51,811 nucleotides of DNA from Pseudomonadales bacterium. Its GTDB lineage: Bacteria > Pseudomonadota > Gammaproteobacteria > Pseudomonadales > Azotimanducaceae. Below the pieces are notes generated by a model. The model searched no databases. It was given only the letters and a program-made list of their open reading frames with translations, and had not been told where the DNA came from. A program made the translations under genes and the position numbers. The DNA is taken from the NCBI GenBank assembly GCA_028280225.1, contig JANQMF010000064.1:1-51811 (forward strand), in the 5' to 3' direction. Positions 8,766-38,055 of this stretch are shown piece by piece (within the stretch, counting starts at the first letter, position 1; each line of letters opens with the position of its first letter).

Positions 8766-9395
8766 ATGAAGGAGACCTCGGCACAAGCAACTTCAACTCG
8801 AAAACGAGATCCTAAGCAGGAACGATCGAAGCAGATGGTCGCGAAGATTCGGGCAGCGACGGAGCGCATCATCGTGACCAAGGGGCTTGGTGCAGTTACT
8901 ACGAATCGTATTGCTGAGTTTGCAGAGATCAGTGTGGGTTCCATCTACCAGTACTATCCAAACAAACAAGCAATTCTTTCGGAAGTAGAGAAGGCTTTCT
9001 TTCGGGACATCCTTGAACACTTGATCGCTCAGATGGATCGTCAATCAGAGTTGGTGCCCGCGAGACGAGTAATCTATGACTTGTTGTACGCATTTACGAG
9101 TTATGTGCTTGAGCGTGAAGTGCTATACACCGGCTTAAGTGAAGTAGCTCGCAAACGGGATACAGAGTCTTTATTTGAAACCGCACTCATGAATGCCGGA
9201 TGGGCATTTGTGAACGGTTTGGGTGTTAAGTTTAAACACAAGCATCCGGAGGAGTCACAACGAATCGTCATCACAAGCTTGTCACATCTAGTTTCACGCT
9301 ACGTCGTGGAAGCCGAAAGTCGTATCCCATTAGATCGCTTTGTCGACTTGATAACCGATCTCACGTTCGACTTTCTCTTTGTTGAGCAGGTCTAG
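8766..9395 (+). CDS. TetR family transcriptional regulator
   Basis: This 209-residue regulator has an N-terminal TetR helix-turn-helix at about residues 25-70 (TNRIAEFAEISVGSIYQYYPNK, split across the two HTH helices). The C-terminal ligand-binding half shows no close family signature. TetR regulators in acyl-CoA loci usually repress the operon and release DNA on binding an acyl-CoA or the free substrate. Plausible targets are the ligase operon at 3521, the aldehyde dehydrogenase at 1635 and the oxygenase at 9752, which has a clean palindrome at its promoter. The ribosome-binding site before 8766 is weak. Confidence 0.88.
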   Translation: MKETSAQATSTRKRDPKQERSKQMVAKIRAATERIIVTKGLGAVTTNRIAEFAEISVGSIYQYYPNKQAILSEVEKAFFRDILEHLIAQMDRQSELVPARRVIYDLLYAFTSYVLEREVLYTGLSEVARKRDTESLFETALMNAGWAFVNGLGVKFKHKHPEESQRIVITSLSHLVSRYVVEAESRIPLDRFVDLITDLTFDFLFVEQV

Positions 9396-9751: not shown

Positions 9752-11101
9752 ATGAGTTATCAAACCTACGATTTCATGGACTGCATTACGGCCCAGAAAG
9801 AGATTGCCCCTACGGTTTATGGCAACCTTGACCTGGATTTTATACCCGAGCGTTTTTACGACCCGCTGACCGCAGGTTCGCTTTTGGATTCAGATCTTAA
9901 GCGGCAATCACCACACAACACTGAAGATGAGATCTTGGCGCTGTTCGATGAAGAACTTGTAGAATTTTATCGACAGCAATGTCTCATGGGTGACCCGTTT
10001 GCGGATGAACTGGCTGCTGTCATGATGGATGAGATGGGTATGCAGGAAGGCAAAGCGCTCTTTCACGAGGCCAGTATGCATGGCGTTGACAGAGTGAAGG
10101 GTGCGCCGCAAGCGATGGTTGATTTCTTCCGCCACCAGGAACGTACCCCGGAATGGCTCGATCACGATGTCATCGAAGGTCGTAACGATCGCCAACGGTT
10201 GGTCATTGCCTGCTTGTTCCAGGTAATTTTGCGTGGCGGCTTTCTTGGCGTCTATGAGAATGACTATGCTTCTATGCCAATGGCCATCACCGGCGGGCTT
10301 TCTGAAAAAGGTGCTGCGAAACGAATCAAGGATACGACCAGCATGGTTCGCGCCACGGTATTTCCAGGGGCGATGCGCCATGGTGCAGTTGGTTACCGCA
10401 TGGCCTGTCGCGTCCGGCTTATGCATGCCATGGTGCGTGTAAATCTACTACGTAAGCCCGACGTTTGGGACATTCATAAATATGGCGTGCCGTTACCACA
10501 AGCAGACACACCAGGTCCGGTCCAGTATCAAACCTATCCGAGCGCCCTCAAATGCCTTCGAGAAGGGCGGGAGTATAATGAACAAGAGCTTGCGGACAAT
10601 CTCTACCACCGTTATTTGACCCATTTGATGGGGGTACACGATTTCTATGCGCCAATAAACTCACCGCAAAAAATTGTCGATAAATGGGAAATGCGCTTTG
10701 CGACACATCGCGCAAAGCGAGATCCTGAACGGTATCGTCCCATGGTCAAAGCAGCGCTGAATTGTTATCTGCAGCCGAATGAGTCTGCGTGGAGTCAGTT
10801 GGTAGATCACTTGGATCGATCTGGGGCAAAACACTACTATGTCAACACGGTTGGGGAGAAACCAGCAGCTGAATATGGCGTTCGGTCAAATGTGCTCAAC
10901 CGCCTAGCATTCTACGCGCATGCCGGTCTTAAATTTGCCGAGTACGCCTTTGTAGAGTTGGTTGGAAATATCCCCGGTGGGCGAAACTTCCGTGAGCGAT
11001 ATGCGGATAAGAAGCTGAAGTCTTACTTAAGCGATGGAGCGTTTGATTCCATGAACACGGACACAGATGCATCGAACTATCGAGTTCAGGAGCAAACATA
11101 G
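9752..11101 (+). CDS. DUF2236/MpaB-like haem oxygenase related to latex clearing protein
   Basis: This 449-residue protein resembles the ER-bound oxygenase mpaB/DUF2236 family, which includes the rubber oxygenase Lcp and fungal MpaB. Arg191, Thr195 and the His225 in VRLMHAMVR have the same spacing (4 and 34 residues) as Arg164, Thr168 and the haem ligand His198 recalled for Lcp of Streptomyces K30. This supports a haem b enzyme. The distal Lys167 of Lcp corresponds to Asp194 here, with Lys193 next to it. Family members cleave isoprenoid double bonds, so oxidation of an isoprenoid or terpenoid feeding the neighbouring aldehyde dehydrogenase and ligase is an attractive inference. There is no signal peptide, so action is intracellular. 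The gene is monocistronic with its own promoter. Confidence 0.75.
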   Translation: MSYQTYDFMDCITAQKEIAPTVYGNLDLDFIPERFYDPLTAGSLLDSDLKRQSPHNTEDEILALFDEELVEFYRQQCLMGDPFADELAAVMMDEMGMQEGKALFHEASMHGVDRVKGAPQAMVDFFRHQERTPEWLDHDVIEGRNDRQRLVIACLFQVILRGGFLGVYENDYASMPMAITGGLSEKGAAKRIKDTTSMVRATVFPGAMRHGAVGYRMACRVRLMHAMVRVNLLRKPDVWDIHKYGVPLPQADTPGPVQYQTYPSALKCLREGREYNEQELADNLYHRYLTHLMGVHDFYAPINSPQKIVDKWEMRFATHRAKRDPERYRPMVKAALNCYLQPNESAWSQLVDHLDRSGAKHYYVNTVGEKPAAEYGVRSNVLNRLAFYAHAGLKFAEYAFVELVGNIPGGRNFRERYADKKLKSYLSDGAFDSMNTDTDASNYRVQEQT

Positions 11102-11284: not shown

Positions 11285-13069
11285 ATGATCCAGAAAGCCA
11301 AAAAGAGACTGCCGATTGGTTTAGTTGCCCTACTGTTCCTCGGAGAAGCCATCGCGCAAGATGTCCCTTTCTACCGTGGCGGACTCGATCATAAGAAAGT
11401 TGAATCGGCAAACGGCGCTATCCTAAACGCAGACCATCACCAGAGAGTATTGCTTGCGGCGCAGGGCGCGAACGTAGTGCAAGTCAACGACCGGGTGCAC
11501 ACCATAACGGGCCTGAGCATTTCGAACTACTCCTTTGTTGAAGGCGAAAACGGTCTAATCGCATTCGATACAGGTAATAATATTGGCATGGGGCAATCCG
11601 CGATCGAAATGATCCGGAGGGTCACCGACAAGCCAGTCATTGCAATCATTTATTCCCATCATCATTACACTGGCGGAGCATCCGCCTATCTAGAAGGGCG
11701 CAACAGGGATGAAATAGAAATATATGCCCACCCTGACGTTGAGCAGAATTTGCTTTCGACGATTTCAAGTCTGGGTCCGATGCAGGTACGCCGGACCGGC
11801 ACTCAGTTTGGTTTTTATCTGCCGCATGAAGGACCCGATGCAATGCCCATGATTGCCGAGCCTACGTTCAAGGACCCTGCTTTGCGAGCAAACGGGCACC
11901 TGCCGGTGACATATAACGTCGCTGATGGAGAAAGCGTTGAAATCGACGGTCTTAAGGTGGTGTTTCACCACATTCAGTCTGACACCGCAGACAGTCTAGC
12001 CGTCCATATTCCGTCGCTGGATTTGGTTTTGCATAACTCGATGATCGCACCTTCGCTGTTTCCAATGTATACATTAAGAGGAGACTACCATCGCGATCCC
12101 GTGGGGCTAATTGCTGGCGTCGACAAGATAAGAGCCATTCGCCCTCAATACTTGGTTGGAGCACATGGACCCCCGCTGACCGATCGCGAACAAGCGTACA
12201 ACGTTGCCACTGCTCATCGCGATGCGGCCTCATTTACTTACAATCAGGCGATACGAGCCATCAATCAGGGAAAGACCCCCGATGATATGGTCGCAGAGAT
12301 AAAACTGCCTCGACACCTTGCTGCGCACCCCTGGTTGTTTCCTGGTTATGTGGACCACGAGTACAATCTTAGAGCTCAATATCGTGGTCTTGTAGGTTGG
12401 TTTGCGGAGGATTCGGCGGACTTACATCCTCCGCGGCCGGAAGAGCTTGGTGCTGTGATGATTGAGGGATTTGGCGGTGAGGACAAAATTGTTCGTCGGG
12501 CTCAGCAGGCCTTTGATGAAAAAAAGTACAATCTAACAGCTAAGCTCTTAAGCTTCGTTTTGGCATCGAATCCTGGCAATAGAGACGCTGCGCAACTCAA
12601 AGCAGACGCCCTCAGAGCGATGGCGCAAACCACTCCTTCTCTGCAGACGCGAAACTTCATGCTTACTCATGCGCGCGATCTGGAAGAAAAGATTGATCGG
12701 ATGGCGCCGTTGTCAGCGGCGTTCTTTGGCGAGGTGGATACAAAGAGCTTGCTCGCAACGCCACCTGGAACAACGATCAGGCTTCTTGAAACGAAATTGG
12801 ATGCGACAACGTGCAGAGGTGTTCGTTCGGCGGTAGCGATAAGATTTTCAGATCTCGATATGTCATGGAACATCCTCCTGAGACCTGGCGTTGCCGAAGT
12901 CGTGCGGTCGGGTGGCGAGCTAGTCAATGCAACGCTCTCCATTGACCGAAAAGACTGGGTGGAAATGGTGCTCCGGATCGAAGACTTAAATTTGCTGTTG
13001 TCCACCGGGAAAGCGTCGATCGATGGTGATGCTGAAGTCGCAAAAAGAACGTTACATTGTTTTGATTGA
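11285..13069 (+). CDS. exported MBL-fold alkylsulfatase homologue with altered metal site
   Basis: This 594-residue protein starts with a signal peptide (KKRLPIGLVALLFLGEAIAQ). An MBL domain, an alkylsulfatase dimerisation region (HPWLFPGYVDHEYNLRAQY, then GWF and DLHP) and a C-terminal SCP2-like domain follow, the order found in SdsA1 and BDS1. The canonical HxHxDH is replaced by SHHHYTGG at residues 124-131, so the Asp and following His are absent. The Glu ligands expected before and within the LHN...YTLRG region are also not evident; His294 in GAHGPP remains. It may bind one metal, use a different set of ligands, or not be a sulfatase. GAGGAGGT before the ATG is a strong ribosome-binding site. 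Confidence 0.8.
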   Translation: MIQKAKKRLPIGLVALLFLGEAIAQDVPFYRGGLDHKKVESANGAILNADHHQRVLLAAQGANVVQVNDRVHTITGLSISNYSFVEGENGLIAFDTGNNIGMGQSAIEMIRRVTDKPVIAIIYSHHHYTGGASAYLEGRNRDEIEIYAHPDVEQNLLSTISSLGPMQVRRTGTQFGFYLPHEGPDAMPMIAEPTFKDPALRANGHLPVTYNVADGESVEIDGLKVVFHHIQSDTADSLAVHIPSLDLVLHNSMIAPSLFPMYTLRGDYHRDPVGLIAGVDKIRAIRPQYLVGAHGPPLTDREQAYNVATAHRDAASFTYNQAIRAINQGKTPDDMVAEIKLPRHLAAHPWLFPGYVDHEYNLRAQYRGLVGWFAEDSADLHPPRPEELGAVMIEGFGGEDKIVRRAQQAFDEKKYNLTAKLLSFVLASNPGNRDAAQLKADALRAMAQTTPSLQTRNFMLTHARDLEEKIDRMAPLSAAFFGEVDTKSLLATPPGTTIRLLETKLDATTCRGVRSAVAIRFSDLDMSWNILLRPGVAEVVRSGGELVNATLSIDRKDWVEMVLRIEDLNLLLSTGKASIDGDAEVAKRTLHCFD

Positions 13070-27172: not shown

Positions 27173-27889
27173 TTACGTTGGGTTCAATCTCAGCAGATCT
27201 ACCCGGTTAGGTGTTTTGAATTGAAAGGGTGGGTCGTTGTCCTGCCGGTGGCTTTCGAACTTTTCCCGTATCAGGGCCAACAGTTCGCCATCGACATTGT
27301 GATCTGTGTGGGTGGCGTTGATGATGCCGGCTTCAAACTGGTCAAATGAAGTTAACTTGACGTCGGCGTAAAAAAAGTGCTGATGCTGCAGGCGAAAGCG
27401 GCCCGAGTCCACGGCTTCAACGGTGGCGGCAAAGGCCGCCTGGCGGACAGCCTGTTCGTCATGGAACAGACGTATCACTTCGTTAAGGTCACCGGCAAAT
27501 ACCGGCTCGGAGATATACAACCAACCATTGGGTTTAAGCGCCCGGGCTATTTCGGCGAAGGCCCGGTTGAGCAAGTCTGCCGGCACGTGGTGTAGCGACT
27601 TCATCATAATCACGATGTCAAAACTGGCGTCGGGTGCCGGAATATCTTCCGCGCCGAAGTGGGCAAACTCTACCCGTGGTATGTCTTGTTGAAGGTTGTG
27701 TTGATGGGCGATTGGGTCAACTTCAGCCGCCACAGCCTTGGTGAGCTGACTGGCCAGGGCAAGCTGACGGATTTTTTCTCCGCGTCCACATCCCAGTTCC
27801 AGAACATGGGCATTTTCCAGCGGCAACAGCTCACACATGAAATGTATTTCATCTCTTGTTGGCTGGGGGTTATTGGTACAGATTTCCAT
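27173..27889 (-). CDS. class I SAM-dependent methyltransferase
   Basis: This 238-residue protein has motif I VLELGCGRGEKIRQLAL, the acidic loop EVDPIAH, motif III SFDIVIMMKSLHHVP and motif IV ALKPNGWLYISEP, as in Methyltransf_11 enzymes acting on small molecules. The ATG at 27889 is chosen over the adjacent upstream TTG. It lies 6 bp downstream of the FAD-dependent monooxygenase-like gene, so the two are an operon, and oxidation followed by methylation of one compound is a reasonable inference. Confidence 0.87.
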   Translation of the reverse strand: MEICTNNPQPTRDEIHFMCELLPLENAHVLELGCGRGEKIRQLALASQLTKAVAAEVDPIAHQHNLQQDIPRVEFAHFGAEDIPAPDASFDIVIMMKSLHHVPADLLNRAFAEIARALKPNGWLYISEPVFAGDLNEVIRLFHDEQAVRQAAFAATVEAVDSGRFRLQHQHFFYADVKLTSFDQFEAGIINATHTDHNVDGELLALIREKFESHRQDNDPPFQFKTPNRVDLLRLNPT

Positions 27890-27895
27890 CAAGTG

Positions 27896-29302
27896 TCAGG
27901 CTCCATCAAGTTCTTCTAACATACGCTCTAAATTGGCAATGGAGCGTTTGCTGTCTTGTTGCATCCGACTCAGCATGGTGGCTTGTTCGGCTGATATTTC
28001 ATTGGGTTCGCCGGGCATGCTGAAGCCGTCAAGGCGTGCATTGCGTAACCACGCCTGCAGATCCGCATCTTGAGACCAGCGCAGGGTGTTCAGATTGTTG
28101 GCCAAAGTTGTGCGCAAAAAATCGATATCTGAATCTGGATGAGGTACCGGGGTACACAGGAGGTTTTTGTCCTGTATGGGTAGATGGGTATATGCGGCCT
28201 CGATGTGGCCGATAAACGCCGCGCTAAATACTTGTTGGCATGTGCGCACGGATTGCAGGGTGATTTTTCCGTTTTCGAATACAGGCTGTTGGGGTCTGCG
28301 CTCCAGGCCGTCTGCGCTGCAGTCGATGTGGAGGGTGTGTAAGTCAGTGGGTATTTCACCCTGGTCCAGGTGGATTTTTGTTTTATCGATTTGTTGCACG
28401 CGCCCCATGCGAATAATGTTGGGGATCTTGCGGAGCTGCTCAAGTTCCGCCTGGGTGACGGTGGCGCACCGGTACATGGTGGGTATAACTTCGGGATCAA
28501 AGCGGATAAGTTGCCCGGTTGCCGCTACTTTTTCAAAAACTTCCTCTATATTCCCGGATTCTGCAATGGCCCGGGTTTGCAGGGCAAAACCCTTGCCCAC
28601 GGATTCGCCGAAAAGATCACCGGGTTGAATGTTGGCGCGGTCCAGCATCCAGGAGTCCCGGGGCATGATCCAAAAGATATGTTCCGGGTTGACCTCATTC
28701 TTCAGCAGGAACAGGCAGGCATCCATGCCGGTTTTACCGGCACCGACAACAACGTAACGCTGGTACTGTCCCGTGAGCCGGGGCAGGGCATTAGGAGGTT
28801 CACAATGTACGCCGTCAGCAACCTGGTATTGGGGAGGGCGCATGGATGGCACGGTGACATTCATGTAGGTGGCATCCACCACAGTGGCGGCCTCAACCTT
28901 GTACTTGGCTGCGGAAACCAGCGAATGGAATTCGCCGTTGCCGGTGTATTCGCACATGGGAAAGTAGTTCACGCGCCCGGAGGGAAGAAATTGCTGCTGC
29001 ATCACTTGATCGAAGTAAGCACAAACCTCGCTGTTGGTGGCCAGTTCGTACAACCCTTTGTTCCACCCGGTCTGGTCGATGGCATCGCTGCCCAGATGTT
29101 TGCTGTTTACCCCGTAGAAAGCGGAAGGCTGGTGCAGGCGTACGTAGGGATAGGCATCGTTCCAATGTCCCCCGGGCTGGTGGTGGCGGTCAACCATAAC
29201 CACGCGGGCCTGGGTTTCTTCCATTAACACATCGGTAAACGCCATCCCCATGGCGCCGCTGCCGATAACGAGATAGTCAGCGTCAAGTTCATGTATAGCC
29301 AT
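27896..29302 (-). CDS. FAD/NAD(P)-binding monooxygenase-like protein
   Basis: This 468-residue flavoprotein has an N-terminal FAD fold (YLVIGSGAMGMAFTDVLM, then VDRHHQPGGHW) and a second dinucleotide fold (YVVVGAGKTGMDACLFLL), the two-Rossmann layout of flavin monooxygenases. The exact Baeyer-Villiger/FMO fingerprint (FxGxxxHxxxW) is not evident, so the reaction is unassigned. It heads an operon with a methyltransferase. Two palindromic repeats lie between it and the FAH gene upstream. Confidence 0.82.
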   Translation of the reverse strand: MAIHELDADYLVIGSGAMGMAFTDVLMEETQARVVMVDRHHQPGGHWNDAYPYVRLHQPSAFYGVNSKHLGSDAIDQTGWNKGLYELATNSEVCAYFDQVMQQQFLPSGRVNYFPMCEYTGNGEFHSLVSAAKYKVEAATVVDATYMNVTVPSMRPPQYQVADGVHCEPPNALPRLTGQYQRYVVVGAGKTGMDACLFLLKNEVNPEHIFWIMPRDSWMLDRANIQPGDLFGESVGKGFALQTRAIAESGNIEEVFEKVAATGQLIRFDPEVIPTMYRCATVTQAELEQLRKIPNIIRMGRVQQIDKTKIHLDQGEIPTDLHTLHIDCSADGLERRPQQPVFENGKITLQSVRTCQQVFSAAFIGHIEAAYTHLPIQDKNLLCTPVPHPDSDIDFLRTTLANNLNTLRWSQDADLQAWLRNARLDGFSMPGEPNEISAEQATMLSRMQQDSKRSIANLERMLEELDGA

Positions 29303-29459: not shown

Positions 29460-30332
29460 TTAGAACAAGGTGGTGTCAGCTGGCTCGTCGATGATTTCGT
29501 TTTCTATGTAGCCAAGCTGGTCAAGTTCAACACGCACTTTATCACCGGGGGATAGGGCGCTGGGTGGTTTCATAGCCATGCCCACACCGGCAGGGGTGCC
29601 GGTGACGACAACATCACCGGGCAGCAGGGTGAAGGCGGTGGACAGGTACGCCAGAATTTCATAACAGTTAAAAATCAGGTCGTTGGTATTGGTATCCTGA
29701 CGCACTTCGCCGTTTACCAGGGTGCGCAGCTGTAAGCGATGTGGGTCCAATCCCTCGTCGACGACCAGGGCCGGTCCCAGCGGGCAGTGTGTATCCCAGG
29801 ATTTGCCCATCGTAAACTGGGGTGGGGTGCCACGCAGTTGCCAGTCGCGCACGCTTACATCGTTGTTGATGGTGTAACCGGCAATTACCTCAGGTGCTTT
29901 GTCAGCGGGAACACGGCGGCACTTTTTACCTATCACAAAGGCCAGTTCACCTTCATAGTCCAGCATTTTGGTTTCTGCGGGTTTGTGCACGGGATCGTAA
30001 GGCCCGGTTATGGAAGTATTCTGTTTGGTAAAAATCACCGGGTGTTCGGGAATTGGCATGCCGCTTTCTACTGCGTGCGCGCGATAATTAAGGCCCACGG
30101 CCAGAATTTTCCCGGGTTGGGGAACGGGGCTTTCCAGTTTCACATCGGCCAGGTCAAAATGGGGTGCACTGCGGCTTGAGGCAGCAGCCTGTAAGGCATC
30201 TTCGCCACCGTTCAGCAGGTCGACCAGGCTGGTGGGCAGTTTTGGGTTGGCCTTACTCAAGTCAATAATCCGGGTGCCCTCCAGCCGGCCAATGCGCGTT
30301 AGGTTGCCTTCGGTAAAAGAGATCAGGTGCAT
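29460..30332 (-). CDS. fumarylacetoacetate hydrolase (FAH) family protein
   Basis: This 290-residue protein has the FAH catalytic core: GKILAVGLNYRAHA, MLDYEGELAFVIGK (acidic metal ligands), GYTINNDVSVRDWQ, GKSWDTHCPLGPALV and VVTGTPAGVG. Members hydrolyse C-C bonds of acylpyruvates, decarboxylate, or hydrate products of extradiol ring cleavage. GGGAGGA before the ATG is a strong ribosome-binding site. Divergence from an extradiol dioxygenase at 30501 makes processing of its ring-cleavage product the most likely role. Confidence 0.9.
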   Translation of the reverse strand: MHLISFTEGNLTRIGRLEGTRIIDLSKANPKLPTSLVDLLNGGEDALQAAASSRSAPHFDLADVKLESPVPQPGKILAVGLNYRAHAVESGMPIPEHPVIFTKQNTSITGPYDPVHKPAETKMLDYEGELAFVIGKKCRRVPADKAPEVIAGYTINNDVSVRDWQLRGTPPQFTMGKSWDTHCPLGPALVVDEGLDPHRLQLRTLVNGEVRQDTNTNDLIFNCYEILAYLSTAFTLLPGDVVVTGTPAGVGMAMKPPSALSPGDKVRVELDQLGYIENEIIDEPADTTLF

Positions 30333-30438: not shown

Positions 30439-30459
30439 CTTGTAATACTACAAGTATTA
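30439..30459. promoter_or_regulatory. overlapping palindromes between FAH and extradiol dioxygenase
   Basis: TAATACT-ACA-AGTATTA (30443-30459) is a perfect 17-bp palindrome. It overlaps a second one, CTTGTA-ATAC-TACAAG (30439-30454). They are about 107 bp from the FAH ATG and 42 bp from the GTG of the dioxygenase, an operator position. A MarR- or GntR-type repressor would suit the size. No such regulator gene is in the window. Confidence 0.55.
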
Positions 30460-30500
30460 ATATAAATTATTTGCTATATGACAAAATAAGGACTGCGACG

Positions 30501-31445
30501 GTGCGTGAGCAAACAACCCCACTTGACACGACTGTGCCTAATCAGGGTATAGCGGATATTCTGTACGTGCGCTTTCAAGTTGAAGATTTGGCCAAACAAC
30601 AAGTCTTTCTGGAGCACTTTGGCTTTGCGGTGGAGCGGGTAGACGGTTATCTGCTGGCCCGGGGCACCGACGCTAACCGATACTGTTATATCGCGGAGGA
30701 AGGGCCCGCTAAGTTCCTAGAGGTGGGATTTGAAGCACTCAGCCACCAGAAAATGCTGGAGATTGCTGCCCTGGAACAAGCGCAAGTATCTGCCCTGGAG
30801 TTTCCGGGTGGCGGTTCCGGGGTACTTTTACACGATCCTGACGGTGTAGCGGTCCGTATTGTCCACGGTATGGAACAGCCCCAGCCCATCACCCCGCCAA
30901 GACGTGCTCCGCTGAATACGGGTGAAGTTAAGCAACGCCTGGGTGAAAGGGTCAGTTTCCCTCACCAGGGACCCATAGTAAAACGGTTAGGCCACTGTGT
31001 ACTATTTGTTAACGACTTTCGAACCTCCGAAGCCTGGTACAAAAGCCGGTTGAGCATGTTAACCAGTGATGAAATCACCGGCGCCAGCGAAGATAAGCCC
31101 ACCGGGGCATTTCTGCGCTGTAACCGGGGAGAGGTTTATGTTGATCACCATACACTCTTTCTAATCAACGCCGGTAAAAGTGATTTTAATCATGCCGCAT
31201 TTGAAGTTGCGGATTGGGACAGCTTGCTGCTGGGCCATGACAGCTTGCGCGAACAAGGATACGAACACGCCATGGGCATTGGTAAACATGTTTTGGGCAG
31301 CCAGGTATTTGACTATTGGAAAGACCCCCAGGGGTTTATGCTGGAACACTTTACCGATGGTGACCTCTTCAACGAAGCCAACGGATCAAGTATAAAGTCT
31401 CCGGAAGTAGCTCTGGCCTCGCATTGGGGAGCAGGTGTGGCTTAA
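30501..31445 (+). CDS. extradiol (meta-cleavage) dioxygenase, VOC superfamily
   Basis: This protein of about 314 residues has two VOC modules. In the C-terminal module His165 (RLGHCVLFV), His231 (FNHAAFEV) and Glu282 (FMLEHFTDG) form the two-His-one-Glu iron site, at spacings (66 and 51) close to BphC (146, 210, 260). It is therefore likely an active type I extradiol dioxygenase cleaving a catechol. A TTG at 30471 would lengthen it, but AAGGA 8 nt before the GTG at 30501 favours the latter. It heads a run with sulfotransferase, Rieske oxygenase and SDR. Confidence 0.9.
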   Translation: MREQTTPLDTTVPNQGIADILYVRFQVEDLAKQQVFLEHFGFAVERVDGYLLARGTDANRYCYIAEEGPAKFLEVGFEALSHQKMLEIAALEQAQVSALEFPGGGSGVLLHDPDGVAVRIVHGMEQPQPITPPRRAPLNTGEVKQRLGERVSFPHQGPIVKRLGHCVLFVNDFRTSEAWYKSRLSMLTSDEITGASEDKPTGAFLRCNRGEVYVDHHTLFLINAGKSDFNHAAFEVADWDSLLLGHDSLREQGYEHAMGIGKHVLGSQVFDYWKDPQGFMLEHFTDGDLFNEANGSSIKSPEVALASHWGAGVA

Positions 31446-31503
31446 TACCTGCCGGCTCCCGGTGTTTAAGAGTTGTTTTAACCACTGTCTTAAGGAGCAT
31501 AAT

Positions 31504-32379
31504 TTGACCCAGGCATCCCGACCGCGTTCTCTAGAAGAAATGCGCCAGCGGTTAAAACACTTAATTACGGAACGAAGTGTCAAACAGGGTATGGCCATGC
31601 AGCTGCGGCCCACGGACGTGGTCATCACCCCCTACGGCAAAAGCGGCACCACTTGGACCCAACAGATTGTTCATACCCTGCGCACCCGGGGTGATATGGA
31701 TTTTGACGACATTTCCCGGGTTGTCCCCTGGTTGGAAACCAGCGCGGACCTGGGCCTGGACTTGCAGGCTGAGCAAAAAGCAATTCCCCGGGCGTTCAAA
31801 AGCCACCTGGGTTGGGGACAGGTGCCTCACGGTGGACGTTACATCAACGTGGTGCGTGATCCCGGTGATGCCGCGGTATCCATGTTCAAGTTCCAGGAAG
31901 GTTGGTTTTTGGAACCCGGCGCGGTTACCGTGGACGAATTTATCAAAGAAGAATTCTTGCGGACACGCAACTACTACAAACACCTGCGTTCCTGGTGGCC
32001 GCGGCGTCACGACGATGATGTGCTCTTTCTCGCCTACGAACACATGCTGGCGGACCCGGAAAAAACCATTACGCGCATTGCGGAATTTATTGGTGTGACC
32101 CTGGATGACAATTTGTTGGCCATGACCCTGGAGCACTCGTCCATCGAATTCATGTTGCAGCACAAGGATCGCTTTGACGATGCCCTGTTGCGCGCGCGTA
32201 GCGAGGTTGTCTGCGACCTGCCGCCAGGCAGCGACAGTGCTAAAGTTCGTGTGGGTAAGGCCGGCGCAAAGGTGACCCTTGCATCCGCCACCCGGCAAAT
32301 GATGGTGGACGCCTGGCAGGAAGAAATTGGCGAAACACTGGGTTTTTTGGACTATCCCGCGTTGGTATCCGCCCTGTAA
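31504..32379 (+). CDS. PAPS-dependent sulfotransferase
   Basis: This 291-residue protein has the cytosolic sulfotransferase signatures: VITPYGKSGTTWTQQIVH (5'-phosphosulfate loop; Lys, Ser, Thr) and NVVRDPGDAAVSMFKF (3'-phosphate binding Arg and Ser). It would transfer sulfate from PAPS to a hydroxyl or phenol. A perfect AAGGAG lies 6 nt before a TTG at 31504. A GTG at 31435 overlapping the dioxygenase stop is possible but poorly placed. It is unusual between an extradiol dioxygenase and a Rieske oxygenase. Sulfation could protect or tag a phenolic intermediate. Confidence 0.9.
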   Translation: MTQASRPRSLEEMRQRLKHLITERSVKQGMAMQLRPTDVVITPYGKSGTTWTQQIVHTLRTRGDMDFDDISRVVPWLETSADLGLDLQAEQKAIPRAFKSHLGWGQVPHGGRYINVVRDPGDAAVSMFKFQEGWFLEPGAVTVDEFIKEEFLRTRNYYKHLRSWWPRRHDDDVLFLAYEHMLADPEKTITRIAEFIGVTLDDNLLAMTLEHSSIEFMLQHKDRFDDALLRARSEVVCDLPPGSDSAKVRVGKAGAKVTLASATRQMMVDAWQEEIGETLGFLDYPALVSAL

Positions 32380-32472
32380 GCGCCTTGCTCAAGCCAGCCG
32401 CGGCGATATAAACCCTTGAATAAATTTAGTACACGTTCCAAGATAAGTTGTTGAGGCTTGTTTGAGGACACG

Positions 32473-34053
32473 ATGAGTAGCACACAAAATAATGGTGTTC
32501 GCACCATGGATGACGCTTTTGCGGACATGCTGGCGGCAGATTCAAATCCGGACTATATCACCGACGCACTGCGCCGCAATGCGCCCCTGCCTGCGGGACC
32601 CACCCTGGTGCCGGTGGCCCGGTATATCGATCGAAAGTACCACGAGCTGGAGAAGGAAAATTTATGGAGCCGTGTGTGGCAAATGGCCGCCCACGAGGAC
32701 GACTTTGTTGAAGTGGGGGATGTAGTCCCTTATGACATCGCCACTCGCTCTTACCTCATTGTGAAAACCGCCGAAAATGAATACAAGGCTTATTATAATG
32801 CCTGCCTGCACCGTGGGCGAAAGCTGCGCGAAGTCAGAGCCAAGGGGTTGGATGAAATACGTTGTCCCTTTCATGGCTGGGCATGGAATCTTGATGGTTC
32901 GCTGAAGCAGGTGCCCTGTGCTTACGATTTTTCGGATCTGGACCGCGACAAAGAGTCTCTGCCCGAGGTCAAACTCAGTCGTTGGGGTCGTTTCCTGTTT
33001 ATAAATCCCGATCCGGATTGTGCACCCTTGGAAGCGCATTTGGGTGACCTGGCTGATCACTTTGAGGTGCTGCCTTATGAGCGCCGTTTTAAACAAGCCC
33101 ATGTGGCTAAGATTATTCGCGCCAACTGGAAGGTGGTCCAGGAAGCCTTTATGGAGTCTTACCATGTGCTGATGACCCACCCCCAGATCCTCACCGGTGG
33201 CGCCCACGATTTGTGTACCAAGTACGACGCTTTTGGCAATTATTCCAGAGCCATACGTTGTGGCGCCCTGGAAACTGAAGGCTTGCCGAGTTGGGAGCCG
33301 TTGACCAGCGAAAATGGCACTACCTGTCTGCGCCATCCTCTCAACGGCTGGGTCTATGAGCATCTGGGAGATGGGGTGGTCCAGGTCAGCACACCCAAGG
33401 GGCTAAGCGGAAAGTTCACCACCAACGCTGAGTGGCTGGAGGGGGAGTTGAAAGACGCCAATCCACACCTTTGTCTGTGGGCGGGGGGATGCCAGTTACC
33501 CGCGTCCGCCCCGGCACCCAGGGCCCGGGACATGGCATTGTCGGATGAGGCCAAGGCGGAAATGGACAAAGTACCTCTGCGGCAATTGCAGGCCCGCATG
33601 CAGCGCCTCATGCTCAAAGATGTGGTGCCCTCCATTGCCGACAATATCCCGGATGTGGAGCTGCACTCTTCAATGTATTTCACTGTCTTCCCAAACTGGC
33701 ATCCCTGGGGTTCGTTTAACTTGATCAACTACCGGTTCAGGCCCAATGGGGACAATCACGAAGAGTGCATTATGGAGTGTATGTACATGGCGCCCATTCC
33801 GGAAAACGGCGAGTACACTCCCGTGGGTGAAATTCACTGGCTGGGCCCGGACGACGATTGGACCGAAGCTGCTGAATTGGGCATGTTGACCAAAATCTTT
33901 AACCAGGATTTGCGTAATTTGCCTCATGTCTATGCCGGCATGAAGGCAACCGCCCGGGAACATTTGCGTCTGGGCGACTACAACGAGCTGAAGTTACGCC
34001 ATTTCCATAACCTGTATACGGAATGGGTGGATGGCGAACCCCGGCAACGCTGA
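32473..34053 (+). CDS. Rieske non-haem iron oxygenase, large subunit
   Basis: This 526-residue aromatic-ring-hydroxylating oxygenase alpha subunit binds its Rieske cluster through Cys111-X-His113 and Cys131-X2-His134 (NACLHRG, RCPFHGW). The catalytic iron site is in NWKVVQEAFMESYHVLMTH, with His231 and His236. At the position of the bridging Asp205 of naphthalene dioxygenase there is Glu228. The third iron ligand is an Asp or Glu in the C-terminal part. It lacks a beta subunit and reductase nearby, so electrons must come from elsewhere. GAGGA before the ATG at 32473 sets the start. It is longer than the usual 430-460 residues because of an insertion near 290-400. Confidence 0.92.
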   Translation: MSSTQNNGVRTMDDAFADMLAADSNPDYITDALRRNAPLPAGPTLVPVARYIDRKYHELEKENLWSRVWQMAAHEDDFVEVGDVVPYDIATRSYLIVKTAENEYKAYYNACLHRGRKLREVRAKGLDEIRCPFHGWAWNLDGSLKQVPCAYDFSDLDRDKESLPEVKLSRWGRFLFINPDPDCAPLEAHLGDLADHFEVLPYERRFKQAHVAKIIRANWKVVQEAFMESYHVLMTHPQILTGGAHDLCTKYDAFGNYSRAIRCGALETEGLPSWEPLTSENGTTCLRHPLNGWVYEHLGDGVVQVSTPKGLSGKFTTNAEWLEGELKDANPHLCLWAGGCQLPASAPAPRARDMALSDEAKAEMDKVPLRQLQARMQRLMLKDVVPSIADNIPDVELHSSMYFTVFPNWHPWGSFNLINYRFRPNGDNHEECIMECMYMAPIPENGEYTPVGEIHWLGPDDDWTEAAELGMLTKIFNQDLRNLPHVYAGMKATAREHLRLGDYNELKLRHFHNLYTEWVDGEPRQR

Positions 34054-34064
34054 GAGAATTTAGC

Positions 34065-34793
34065 ATGAGTGAACAGAATATTGCCCTGATTACCGGTGGG
34101 GCTACGGGCATCGGTGCCGCCACAGCTCAGCTGCTGTCGCAACAGGGGGCCCGGGTGGCCATTCTGGATGTGAACGAAAGCCAGGGTGAGGCCCTGGCGG
34201 CAGACATTGGGGGGCGGTTTTACCACTGTAATGTGACGGATTTCGAATCCGTGACGGCGGCGGTGGCACAATGCCGGCATGACCTGGGCACACCCACCTA
34301 TGCGCACTTGAATGCCGGCATTATGACCGTGCCCACGGGAAGTGATTTCCTGGCCATCGAAACGGTCAGTGTGGAGCAGTATCAGCGGATTGTCGGGGTT
34401 AACCTCAATGGGGTATTTTATGGGGTAAAAGCCCTGTTGCCGGAAATGCGGGCCAGGGGTGGGGCGATCACCATCACCGCATCGGTTGCGGCATTTGGCT
34501 CATTGCCCATCGATCCCATGTACTCTGCCACCAAACACGCGCTCATTGGATTTGCCCGCAGTGTGGCCGGTGCCAACGAGGGCGGGCCGGTGCGGATTAA
34601 TGTCATCTGTCCCGGCGTTGTGGACACCGCCATTGTTCCGGATGCTTTCCGGGACCCCGCCACCATCATGCCTGCGTCAGAACTGGCTGCGGAGGTGGTG
34701 GATCTGCTGACACAGGGCAAAAACGGAGAAGTGCGCGCTAAAATTGCCGGCCGGGCAGCTTTTGAGGTGCCTCCGATTGATGTAAGTGCTTAA
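34065..34793 (+). CDS. short-chain dehydrogenase/reductase
   Basis: This 242-residue classical SDR has TGGATGIGAA (cofactor glycine motif), LNAGIM (NNAG variant), Ser in TASVAAFG, and the catalytic YSATK. Eleven base pairs separate it from the Rieske oxygenase stop. Oxidation of a cis-dihydrodiol or hydroxyl product of that enzyme is the obvious inference. An open frame begins upstream inside the Rieske gene at 34023, but the ATG at 34065 aligns with SDR N-termini. Confidence 0.9.
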   Translation: MSEQNIALITGGATGIGAATAQLLSQQGARVAILDVNESQGEALAADIGGRFYHCNVTDFESVTAAVAQCRHDLGTPTYAHLNAGIMTVPTGSDFLAIETVSVEQYQRIVGVNLNGVFYGVKALLPEMRARGGAITITASVAAFGSLPIDPMYSATKHALIGFARSVAGANEGGPVRINVICPGVVDTAIVPDAFRDPATIMPASELAAEVVDLLTQGKNGEVRAKIAGRAAFEVPPIDVSA

Positions 34794-34822
34794 GTTATAT
34801 AAGACAAATTGATTATAACTTA
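34791..34822. promoter_or_regulatory. inverted repeat between SDR and cysH
   Basis: Perfect 9-bp arms TAAGTTATA (34791-34799) and TATAACTTA (34814-34822) are separated by 14 bp. The left arm contains the SDR stop. It could be an AT-rich 3' hairpin or an operator/promoter element for cysH, whose ATG is 64 bp further on. Confidence 0.4.
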
Positions 34823-34885
34823 TGCTTATTTGAGTATGGCAATTGATTCTTTTTGTTTCGGCCTGGGTGCCCCTACAGTGTGCGT

Positions 34886-35605
34886 ATGCCAGCATCAAAC
34901 GCCATTTCTCAAGCTGTATTCGACCAGGATCAACTGGCCGATTGGAATGATCATTTTACCGGGTTAGACGCCATCGCCCGGGTAAGGCTTGCGCTGGAAG
35001 AATTTCCCGGTGCACATGTGCTCAGCTCAAGTTTTGGTGCCCAGGCCGCGGTTAGCCTGCACATGCTCAGTCAGGCCCGGCCGGACATCCCGGTCATTCT
35101 GCTGGATACCGGGTATCTTTTCCCGGAAACCTATGACTTTGTCGAAGAACTGACCCAGCAGCTGTCGCTGAACCTGCATGTGTATCGAAACGAGATGACA
35201 CCGGCCCAGCAGGAGCTGAAGTATGGTAAACGCTGGCTGCAAGGCCAGGCCGGTATTGATCAGTACAATTTTGATAACAAAGTTGAGCCCATGCAGCGGG
35301 CCTTGGAAGAACTGCAGGTAGGAACCTGGTTTTCCGGTATTCGCCGGACCCAATCCACCAGCCGGGAAGAGACCCCCTTTGTACAGTTTAAAGACGGGTG
35401 TTATAAGGTGTCGCCAATTGCAGATTGGACGGACAAGGATGTTTATGACTATCTGTCTGCCCACAACCTGCCGTACCATCCGCTGTGGCACAAGGGTTAC
35501 ATTTCCATTGGTGACGTACATACCACTAAGGCACTGCACGAGGTGGAAGACCCCAGCGAAGTGCGTTTTTTTGGTCTAAAACGCGAATGTGGACTGCACG
35601 CCTGA
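34886..35605 (+). CDS. cysH: phosphoadenosine phosphosulfate (PAPS) reductase
   Basis: This 239-residue protein reduces PAPS to sulfite and PAP using thioredoxin. It has the PP-loop-like SSSFGAQAAVSLHM, VILLDTGYLFPET, the binding segment GIRRTQSTSREETPF and a C-terminal catalytic KRECGLHA. The two CC pairs of 4Fe-4S APS reductases are absent, so PAPS is the expected substrate. It lies at the end of the operon that contains a PAPS-using sulfotransferase. CysH is normally grouped with cysJI, which are not present here. Confidence 0.93.
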   Translation: MPASNAISQAVFDQDQLADWNDHFTGLDAIARVRLALEEFPGAHVLSSSFGAQAAVSLHMLSQARPDIPVILLDTGYLFPETYDFVEELTQQLSLNLHVYRNEMTPAQQELKYGKRWLQGQAGIDQYNFDNKVEPMQRALEELQVGTWFSGIRRTQSTSREETPFVQFKDGCYKVSPIADWTDKDVYDYLSAHNLPYHPLWHKGYISIGDVHTTKALHEVEDPSEVRFFGLKRECGLHA

Positions 35606-35681: not shown

Positions 35682-36500
35682 CTACAGGCTCAGCGCGCTG
35701 TAAACCATGCGGCCGGCAACAAAAACCAGCAACACACCAAAACACCGTTTTAATAGATCTGCAGGTACCCGATGGGCAAATTTCACCCCCAGTGGCGCGC
35801 ACAGAACCGCTGCTGCCGTGATGACCACAAAACTCGAAACATCCACATAGCCAAGCTGCCAGGCGGAAACGCCAGCAAGGGTGTTGCCTGACAGGATATA
35901 GCTGAGCGCGCCCGCGGCGGCAATGGGTACGCCCAGGGCACTGGAAGTGGCGGTGGCGTTGTGGATTGGCGTGTTGAAGTACACCAGGGTGGGCACAATC
36001 ACGTTACCGCCGGCAATACCGGCAATGCCGGACATCAAGCCACCGGCAAAGCCGATGCCTTGTCCATACGGCGCCTTGGGTAACTCCCGATGCGCTGCCG
36101 GCCGCCAATTAGTCAACATGACCAAGGCCACAAATGCCAAAAACAAGCCGATCACCACGCGCAAGGCCTGGGCCGGCAGTTGCGGGCTGAGTACCCCGGC
36201 ACAAAAACTGCCTAATACAAAAAACACCATCAAGCGGCGGAACAACGGCCAAAGTACCTTGCCCGACCGGTATTGGGTATACGCTGCAGAGGCAGAGGTA
36301 AAGACGATACAGGACAAGGAGGTAGCCACTGCGATCAGAGTAATTTCTTCAGCCGGAGAGTGGCCGGTACCCTCAAGCAATAAGATCAGTGCAGGGACAA
36401 TGACAACTCCGCCGCCAATACCCAGCATGCCGCCCAGAAAACCGCTGGTGGTGCCGATCAGTAAGAGGCTTGCCAGTAGCGGCAGCGAGATTTCAGTCAT
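35682..36500 (-). CDS. TauE/SafE family sulfite or sulfonate exporter
   Basis: This 272-residue membrane protein has about eight hydrophobic segments and the duplicated TauE motif GGMLGIGGGVVIVPALIL near residue 22 and LMSGIAGIAGGNVIVPTLVY near 154. Family members export sulfite, sulfoacetate and related anions. It is convergent with cysH across 76 bp. With a sulfotransferase and a PAPS reductase nearby, removal of excess sulfite is a plausible role, although the family is broad. Confidence 0.87.
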   Translation of the reverse strand: MTEISLPLLASLLLIGTTSGFLGGMLGIGGGVVIVPALILLLEGTGHSPAEEITLIAVATSLSCIVFTSASAAYTQYRSGKVLWPLFRRLMVFFVLGSFCAGVLSPQLPAQALRVVIGLFLAFVALVMLTNWRPAAHRELPKAPYGQGIGFAGGLMSGIAGIAGGNVIVPTLVYFNTPIHNATATSSALGVPIAAAGALSYILSGNTLAGVSAWQLGYVDVSSFVVITAAAVLCAPLGVKFAHRVPADLLKRCFGVLLVFVAGRMVYSALSL

Positions 36501-36550: not shown

Positions 36551-38005
36551 TTACAAACCCTTAAGGGTTTCGTTAACCCGGTCAATCATCTCATCCTTGT
36601 TGTACAGATCATAGTATATCGAGGCCATGACATTTTGTGGCCCAAAAAAGAAGCGCTCATACAGCACCTGGCGGTTGCCAAAGCCGGATACGGCCACGTC
36701 GTGGGCAAGGCGGAACAGGGCCACCCGGTCTCTGCTGTGCATATTGGTGAGCTGAAAATACCGTTCCACATCCTGGGCAATGTCGCCGTTGAAGTCGGCT
36801 TCACAAGGGGTAGCCATCAGTGAACTTGAGCCCAGCATATGGACCGTTTCAATCAGTTTGGGGTACAGCCGGGGGAATAGATTGCGCGCGGTATCCAGGG
36901 GTCTTCTGGCGGCATGGAACAGGCCCCACTTGTCCTGTTCAGCATGGGCTTCGGCACTGAACAACAATGCCCGGACGGTTTCGGCCACCCACATGGTTTC
37001 AGCAATCTGGCCCTTAACCGCCATATCCTTGTCCTTGCCGGATGCGTGGGCCATGGCGCATAACAGACCCACAATAAACTCTACCTTGGCCAGCTTGCCG
37101 CAGGCCACCTGGTGCATCATATGCACCACGGCATTGGTTTCCGCAAAAGCCCGGTTACACAGCAAAGGATCCTTGTACATAAATACCCGCTCCCAGGGGA
37201 CCTCAACCCGGTCAAATATCACCACCGCATCCATCTCCTCAAAGCGGGCGGCCAGAGGGGCATCAAAGGTCGACTTGCCGTGCTCGTAGCTGTCGCGGCA
37301 AATCATGCGCAGGCCCGGCGTGGCAATCGGGATGGAGAATGCAAAGGCGTAGGGAATATTTTCTTCAGAAGCCTTGAGCAATGTGGATGGAAAAACCTCA
37401 ATTTCGTTGGCGCTTGGGCCCAGGGTTGCCAGCAGGCGGGCACCGCTGACCACAATCCCCCGGCTATTTTCCCCAATCAAACGCAGGGCTACTTCCGGAC
37501 TGGATAGCCCTTCCTTGGCCAGGGCAGCATTAAACTGGGGGTTAACCAAGGTGTGGGTCAGTACATAGTCGTTTCCTCTGGCTTCTTCGTAGTAACTTTC
37601 CATATTGCGGGCAAAATTGGTGGGCGCCTGGTTATCCCGATTTTCGTTTAGAAATTCCGCGGCACCGGCAAAGGCCATCACCGACGCGTTTTTATAATCC
37701 GGTGTCCGGCCGAACATACCGTTGGACCACTTAGCCCATGCATAATAAGCCGCACCCCGGCGCTGCACATCTTCCACGGACCTGGGTTTTAAAAAAGACA
37801 TGGAGAAAGTTTCACCATCCTCCTGATAAGTCAGGGAATTTTTATACTCCGGGGATTGTTGCCGGTCTAAAAAACCTGCCAGGGTCCGCACGCCATTGGC
37901 AATGCCGGGTTCTGTGGTGACGTCCTCAACTTGTTTACCCCGCAGCCATACCGAACGGCTGTCCTGGAGTGATGCCAGGTACTGTGCCCCGGTTTTAATA
38001 CCCAT
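36551..38005 (-). CDS. HpaB-type FADH2-dependent phenol hydroxylase
   Basis: This 484-residue protein belongs to the 4-hydroxyphenylacetate 3-monooxygenase large-subunit family. Typical segments are GIKTGAQYLASLQDSRSVW, RTPDYKNASVMAF, NPQFN and the FAD/substrate region AARFEEMDAVVIFDRVEVPW. Members hydroxylate phenols to catechols with FADH2 supplied by a separate HpaC reductase; none is visible here. It could make the catechol cut by the extradiol dioxygenase. GGGAGAA lies 5 nt before the ATG at 38005; a TTG-initiated longer frame is unlikely. A large palindrome lies immediately upstream. Confidence 0.9.
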   Translation of the reverse strand: MGIKTGAQYLASLQDSRSVWLRGKQVEDVTTEPGIANGVRTLAGFLDRQQSPEYKNSLTYQEDGETFSMSFLKPRSVEDVQRRGAAYYAWAKWSNGMFGRTPDYKNASVMAFAGAAEFLNENRDNQAPTNFARNMESYYEEARGNDYVLTHTLVNPQFNAALAKEGLSSPEVALRLIGENSRGIVVSGARLLATLGPSANEIEVFPSTLLKASEENIPYAFAFSIPIATPGLRMICRDSYEHGKSTFDAPLAARFEEMDAVVIFDRVEVPWERVFMYKDPLLCNRAFAETNAVVHMMHQVACGKLAKVEFIVGLLCAMAHASGKDKDMAVKGQIAETMWVAETVRALLFSAEAHAEQDKWGLFHAARRPLDTARNLFPRLYPKLIETVHMLGSSSLMATPCEADFNGDIAQDVERYFQLTNMHSRDRVALFRLAHDVAVSGFGNRQVLYERFFFGPQNVMASIYYDLYNKDEMIDRVNETLKGL

Positions 38006-38022
38006 AACGTTCTCCCGGAATA

Positions 38023-38055
38023 TAATTAATATGTTAATGTTTAACATATTAATTA
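38023..38055. promoter_or_regulatory. 33-bp perfect palindrome upstream of the HpaB-type gene
   Basis: Perfect 15-bp arms (left 38023-38037, right 38041-38055, core TTAATATGTTAA / TTAACATATTAA) flank a 3-nt centre. It lies 18-50 bp before the ATG at 38005, covering the probable promoter. The length and exact symmetry indicate an operator for a dimeric repressor of MarR or similar type; no such gene is adjacent. Confidence 0.65.

Follow-up and report, generated by a model that had tools for sequence, protein, structure and literature searches.

What a sulfotransferase gene is doing among genes for aromatic ring cleavage is the question raised by contig JANQMF010000064.1 of a Pseudomonadales bacterium of the family Azotimanducaceae (assembly GCA_028280225.1). 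The window, that is, the whole stretch of DNA analysed, comprises this entire contig of 51,811 nucleotides, one of the 242 contigs of a 4.4-Mb assembly (genome G000). Four genes on its forward strand are at issue, coding for a VOC-type (vicinal oxygen chelate, type I) extradiol ring-cleavage dioxygenase (EDO; 30501-31445, GTG start; PF00903), a 3'-phosphoadenosine 5'-phosphosulfate (PAPS)-type small-molecule sulfotransferase (ST; 31504-32379, TTG start with AGGAG upstream; PF00685, E 3.2e-35), a Rieske non-haem iron oxygenase of the alpha-subunit type (32473-34053; PF00355 and PF00848) and a short-chain dehydrogenase (SDR; 34065-34793; PF00106, E 3e-40). Open reading frames (ORFs) and domain matches confirm the original prediction, made from the sequence alone, that these genes and cysH (34886-35605, forward strand; NF002537 above cut-off) run in one direction and that a TauE gene (35682-36500, reverse strand; PF01925) converges on them. 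The intergenic gaps are 58 bp (EDO-ST), 93 bp (ST-Rieske), 11 bp (Rieske-SDR) and 92 bp (SDR-cysH). A scan for promoters and terminators gave no excess over shuffled sequence (3 vs 4.5 and 8 vs 7.5) and decides nothing.

The answer favoured here, tentatively and with a probability of about 0.42, is that a known ring-cleavage module has recruited an ST of the SULT fold, which probably transfers sulfate to a phenol of the pathway, either the substrate or an intermediate, as a reversible mask. The chemistry of Rieske, SDR, extradiol and FAH-type enzymes is established by family. The Rieske oxygenase and SDR would convert the substrate to a diol or catechol, the EDO would open the ring, and a FAH-family hydrolase encoded divergently from the EDO (29460-30332, reverse strand; PF01557) would split the ring-fission product. 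The ST, apparently recruited into one operon with the dioxygenase, would use PAPS as its donor and a phenol of the pathway as its acceptor, and we infer a protective role for it, the mask lowering toxicity or serving storage or export while ring cleavage lags. This reading draws on gene content, an operon-like layout in two species, catalytic residues, purifying selection, the SULT fold and the frequency of sulfatases near related EDOs. Each enzyme is of a known kind; the combination is what is new.

Conservation of the operon in a second species

The order EDO-ST-Rieske-SDR is repeated in a second genome (G030), taken to be the Pseudomonadales metagenome-assembled genome (MAG) IP29b_bin.118 (JANQOA010000072.1; the neighbouring genes are 100% identical), with identities to the window proteins of 75, 76, 86 and 76%, respectively. 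As the same order recurs there, the four-gene layout is not due to chance, and the co-occurrence of the ST with EDO and Rieske genes extends beyond one strain; all four genes together were found in no genome besides these two. The EDO and ST genes of G030 share a 4-bp ATGA overlap, and the ratios of nonsynonymous to synonymous substitution (dN/dS) between the two genomes are 0.076 for the ST and 0.088 for the EDO, with synonymous sites near saturation. The common order, the overlap in G030 and a dN/dS of about 0.08 support the ST as a genuine member of the ring-cleavage operon in both species, so that this part of the original prediction stands, while its inclusion of cysH and TauE does not.

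The divergent genes coding for the FAH hydrolase (78% identity), a flavin monooxygenase-like (FMO-like) protein (27896-29302, reverse strand; PF13450, 25.6 bits vs a cut-off of 21.9; 74%) and a class I methyltransferase (27173-27892, reverse strand; PF08241; 61%) also keep their window order in G030. An amidohydrolase and a TetR regulator are additionally encoded at the G030 locus, the latter between EDO and FAH; by BLASTP, the TetR encoded in the window (8766-9395) is unrelated to it.

The encoded enzymes

In an alignment of 34 EDO rows, which includes the window row and the G030 sequence twice, His165, His231, His216, His217 and Tyr272 are found in 34/34 and Glu282 in 33/34 (one gap), confirming that His165, His231 and Glu282 are intact as predicted. 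These residues, which we take to form the 2-His-1-Glu iron site and to include the catalytic His and Tyr, give the EDO the active site of a type I (VOC) extradiol dioxygenase. It falls into none of the named equivalogs compared (bits/cut-off: BphC 59/366, catechol 2,3-dioxygenase 57/320, HpaD 57/321 and HsaC 28/450), and its AlphaFold model, built from three sequences, has a pLDDT of 45. Counting the window's own genome, relatives of the EDO are encoded in 36 of 146 related genomes at E 1e-10, and a phylum sample of 398 genomes has 13 with such a relative at E 1e-20. Of 12 EDO loci taken from this sample, 11 contain a FAH homologue and nine an MhpA-like gene, and the ST and sulfatase queries are absent from the best matches in all 12. 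The Burkholderia multivorans plasmid NZ_CP143553.1 is annotated with TetR, a 3-(3-hydroxyphenyl)propionate-type hydroxylase, a VOC protein and FAH. On the strength of these loci and this plasmid, clusters that combine an EDO with FAH and a hydroxylase are of a known type.

The ST matches PF00685 with 122 bits (cut-off 22) and has the SULT fold. K46, R118, S126 and H101 are invariant in 23/23 sequences; by analogy with SULT1A1, the first three would line the PAPS site and H101 would be catalytic. A sterol as acceptor, which had been proposed alongside a phenol, draws on the SULT fold and has no specific support. The Rieske protein carries CxH-x17-CxxH and ESYH-x4-H (the mononuclear-iron His pair), the motifs of a ring-hydroxylating oxygenase, and its relatives occur in 30/146 genomes at E 1e-60, its own genome counted. 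A sulfatase is encoded in two of 16 fetched loci of Rieske orthologues (G010 and G019), for which no association is claimed. One further locus (L110 in G427), with a Rieske protein of 60-64% identity about 9 kb from an ST, was treated as weak.

Sulfatases beside related dioxygenases

A broader result than the ST operon, and one that the original prediction did not contain, is the association of sulfatases with the EDO family. Across the bacterial family to which the window belongs, 15/34 EDO loci have a gene for a PF00884-type sulfatase within 5 kb (L218, L220, L223, L224, L226, L277-L279, L282-L287 and L331), where 0.97 would be expected from the PF00884 count of each genome, a count that includes non-sulfatase members of the family (naive P ~4e-15). 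The figure of 15/34 is naive about kinship, as L218, L220, L223, L224 and L226 have one common arrangement, with the gene order sulfatase, GST, EDO, TetR, FAH and MhpA-like hydroxylase. Scored as misses were L281 (sulfatase at 7.2 kb), L290 (weak EDO match) and the short contigs L210, L219, L288 and L289; the 34 exclude EDO places in G025, G027, G056, G065 and G088 and one in G079 (L280), which belongs to another family. The CxPxR motif is present in 14 of the 15 EDO-adjacent sulfatases, that of L287 being cut by the contig end. In a tree of 32 of the 34 rows (L289 and L331 were too short), which carries a long-branch warning, foremost for L290, loci with the sulfatase label fall into several EDO clades, with seven label changes, three of them forced by well-supported branches.

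FAH and MhpA-like genes are likewise recurrent in the sulfatase-bearing loci, which, judged by their gene content, are a candidate aryl-sulfate catabolic module and hint that sulfated phenols matter to these bacteria. One locus (L330 5619-13667, G457:C32) has, besides MhpA-like, EDO and FAH genes, a sulfatase gene and also one for a different, distant PF00685 sulfotransferase. The literature describes sulfated phenolics in seagrass, seaweeds and marine invertebrates. A module coupling sulfate-ester enzymes to extradiol cleavage would offer testable candidates for the use of sulfated phenolics by marine bacteria and would connect organic sulfur with the turnover of aromatic carbon. No report of a sulfatase- or sulfotransferase-bearing extradiol cluster was found among the matches listed from open-licence PMC; PMC5770400 names sulfatase and extradiol genes separately.

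Possible roles of the sulfotransferase

Several observations weigh against a sulfonating mask within the pathway. The full set is limited to two species, and the relatives carry a sulfatase, which works in the opposite direction, chiefly beside distant EDO members (10/13 loci at 31-38% identity to the window EDO, 5/19 at 51-61% and 0/2 above 70%). A reversible mask also wants a matching desulfating enzyme, and both PF00884 proteins of G000 (E 3e-29 and 3e-28, above the cut-off of that family) are long and lack CxPxR; a gene of the alkylsulfatase type is located at a distance of 17 kb. Finally, an EDO is encoded near the ST in only 2/80 loci of the ST subfamily (up to 10 kb per side) and in 0/20 loci of the family, several of which are the same contigs again. 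These counts agree with the original prediction that a sulfotransferase beside ring-cleavage genes is unusual. The subfamily is widespread with varying neighbours, and its acceptor need not be aromatic.

The same counts favour the view that the ST is a passenger, a promiscuous enzyme or one of unrelated function that ended up in the operon by chance and whose acceptor is something else, such as a lipid, sugar or alcohol. The ST subfamily has no constant partner, EDO, ST and Rieske genes stand side by side in one of the 80 ST loci only (L077), and no ST of the window subfamily was called beside the fetched EDO or Rieske loci of relatives except in G030. Against this stand the retention of the ST in the operon across two species, under purifying selection at 24% protein difference, its 4-bp overlap with the EDO in G030 and the recurrence of sulfatases as neighbours of the EDO family, so that a passenger is considered rather unlikely. 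The neighbours of the ST were rejected as a clue to its acceptor, since the largest groups (by eye SDR, TonB-dependent receptor and acyl-CoA enzymes) are too general. Sulfatases are encoded by six ORFs in five of the 80 ST loci, directly upstream of the ST only in L081 and L100, and no association is claimed; a plasmid search with the ST returned five distant records. In the Caulobacteraceae MAG G826 (L140), an EDO of 46% identity lies 4.4 kb from an ST of the window subfamily and close to a second ST that appears split over frames, a proximity that may be chance as this genome has 17 PF00685 matches. In L329 (962-12266, G826:C203) of this genome, two ST genes, one apparently split over frames, flank genes for an EDO, a ferredoxin reductase-like protein and an alpha/beta hydrolase-like protein.

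Alternatively, the ST might run in reverse and replace the sulfatase of the relatives, converting aryl sulfate and 3'-phosphoadenosine 5'-phosphate (PAP) into a free phenol for ring cleavage and PAPS for assimilation. SULTs are able to catalyse the reverse reaction when the aryl sulfate is an activated one. Structures of SULTs in complex with p-nitrophenyl sulfate or 'PNPS' (2zyu and 8xjq) accord with this, as do the sulfatases near many EDO relatives and the scarcity of PF00884 proteins in G000, with two matches lacking the sulfatase motif compared to 4-22 matches in each of the 32 other genomes searched. The direction is nonetheless improbable. G030 has the ST operon together with eight PF00884 matches, one of them beside a second EDO, and the adjacency of cysH is not conserved. 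In addition, PAP is scarce and the formation of PAPS from ordinary phenol sulfates is uphill. A wider form of this proposal, held to be even less probable, would have phenolic sulfate esters serve this marine Pseudomonadales family as a standard currency of catabolism, handled by a module with either a sulfatase or an ST, the ST of the window lineage working in reverse; one step would then open a carbon route and save the ATP cost of sulfate activation.

Slimmer still are the chances that the sulfate serves as a leaving group, allowing a hydroxyl to be lost in the course of ring processing on the principle of retinol dehydratase, as the ST is no closer to that enzyme than to ordinary SULTs and no elimination partner is evident.

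cysH, TauE and other neighbouring genes

The original prediction had extended the system to cysH and TauE, with PAPS level and sulfite export tuned locally. An amidase gene comes after the operon in G030, where cysH (77% identity) and TauE (69%) occur together on another contig, which speaks against such local tuning. Among nine genomes, a TauE homologue is encoded beside cysH only in the window genome and G030; in the other seven, no homologue of the window TauE lies within ~1.4 kb on either side of cysH. Two PF01507 matches are present in G000, namely the window cysH and a gene followed immediately by another long frame. We infer that the latter gene is of the CysD type and read the pair as cysD-cysN, whereby the window cysH appears to be the only CysH of the genome, a circumstance that had been named beforehand as refuting its link to the module. 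Both genes were thus rejected as parts of the module, their linkage to EDO-ST-Rieske-SDR not being conserved in the one other operon genome compared, and they look like ordinary bystanders of the operon. A same-strand cysH 92 bp downstream and a convergent TauE are what the full original scheme has in its favour, and the arrangement in G030, together with cysH being apparently the sole CysH, leaves it scarcely credible.

Directly past TauE, a HpaB-type flavin-dependent phenol monooxygenase is encoded (36551-38047, reverse strand; TIGR02309 above cut-off). The alkylsulfatase-type gene at ~17 kb from the operon codes for a metallo-beta-lactamase (11285-13069, forward strand; PF14863/PF14864/PF00753), and the product of 9752-11101 (forward strand) is a borderline case for the MpaB/rubber oxygenase family, scoring slightly below cut-off.

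Comparison with known systems

Clusters of TetR, MhpA-like hydroxylase, VOC dioxygenase and FAH, such as that on NZ_CP143553.1, resemble the window in their EDO family and FAH partner. In the window, Rieske and SDR genes replace the MhpA-like hydroxylase, an ST is added, and the TetR gene which G030 has between EDO and FAH is lacking. The sulfatase-bearing clusters (G033:C11, G014:C145 and G008:C2) have EDOs homologous to that of the window (53, 52 and 36% identity, respectively) and likewise a sulfate-ester enzyme nearby, but contain a PF00884 sulfatase in place of the ST and an MhpA-like hydroxylase (with GST in G033 and G014) in place of Rieske and SDR.

The window Rieske protein shares with the carnitine/glycine betaine monooxygenase group an alignable N-terminal half and, ahead of the iron histidines, a Glu at the position of the Asp of naphthalene dioxygenase, but is longer and scores far below the NCBIfam equivalog cut-offs (GbcA 85 vs 670 bits). 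None of the four operon genes codes for a beta subunit, a ferredoxin or a reductase, overlapping and shorter ORFs and the rest of the genome lying outside the scan. Because of this lack of partner subunits within the operon and the Glu resembling that of carnitine monooxygenase, a role as monooxygenase or demethylase is possible. The ST, for its part, has the fold, the Lys/Arg/Ser of the PAPS site and the catalytic His in common with the cytosolic SULTs (PF00685; SULT1E1, SULT1A1 and SULT1C2), at 21-28% identity and with partial retention of the RKGxxGxWK-type C-terminal motif, which we take to be the SULT consensus. Unlike these enzymes, it is encoded in a bacterial ring-cleavage operon.

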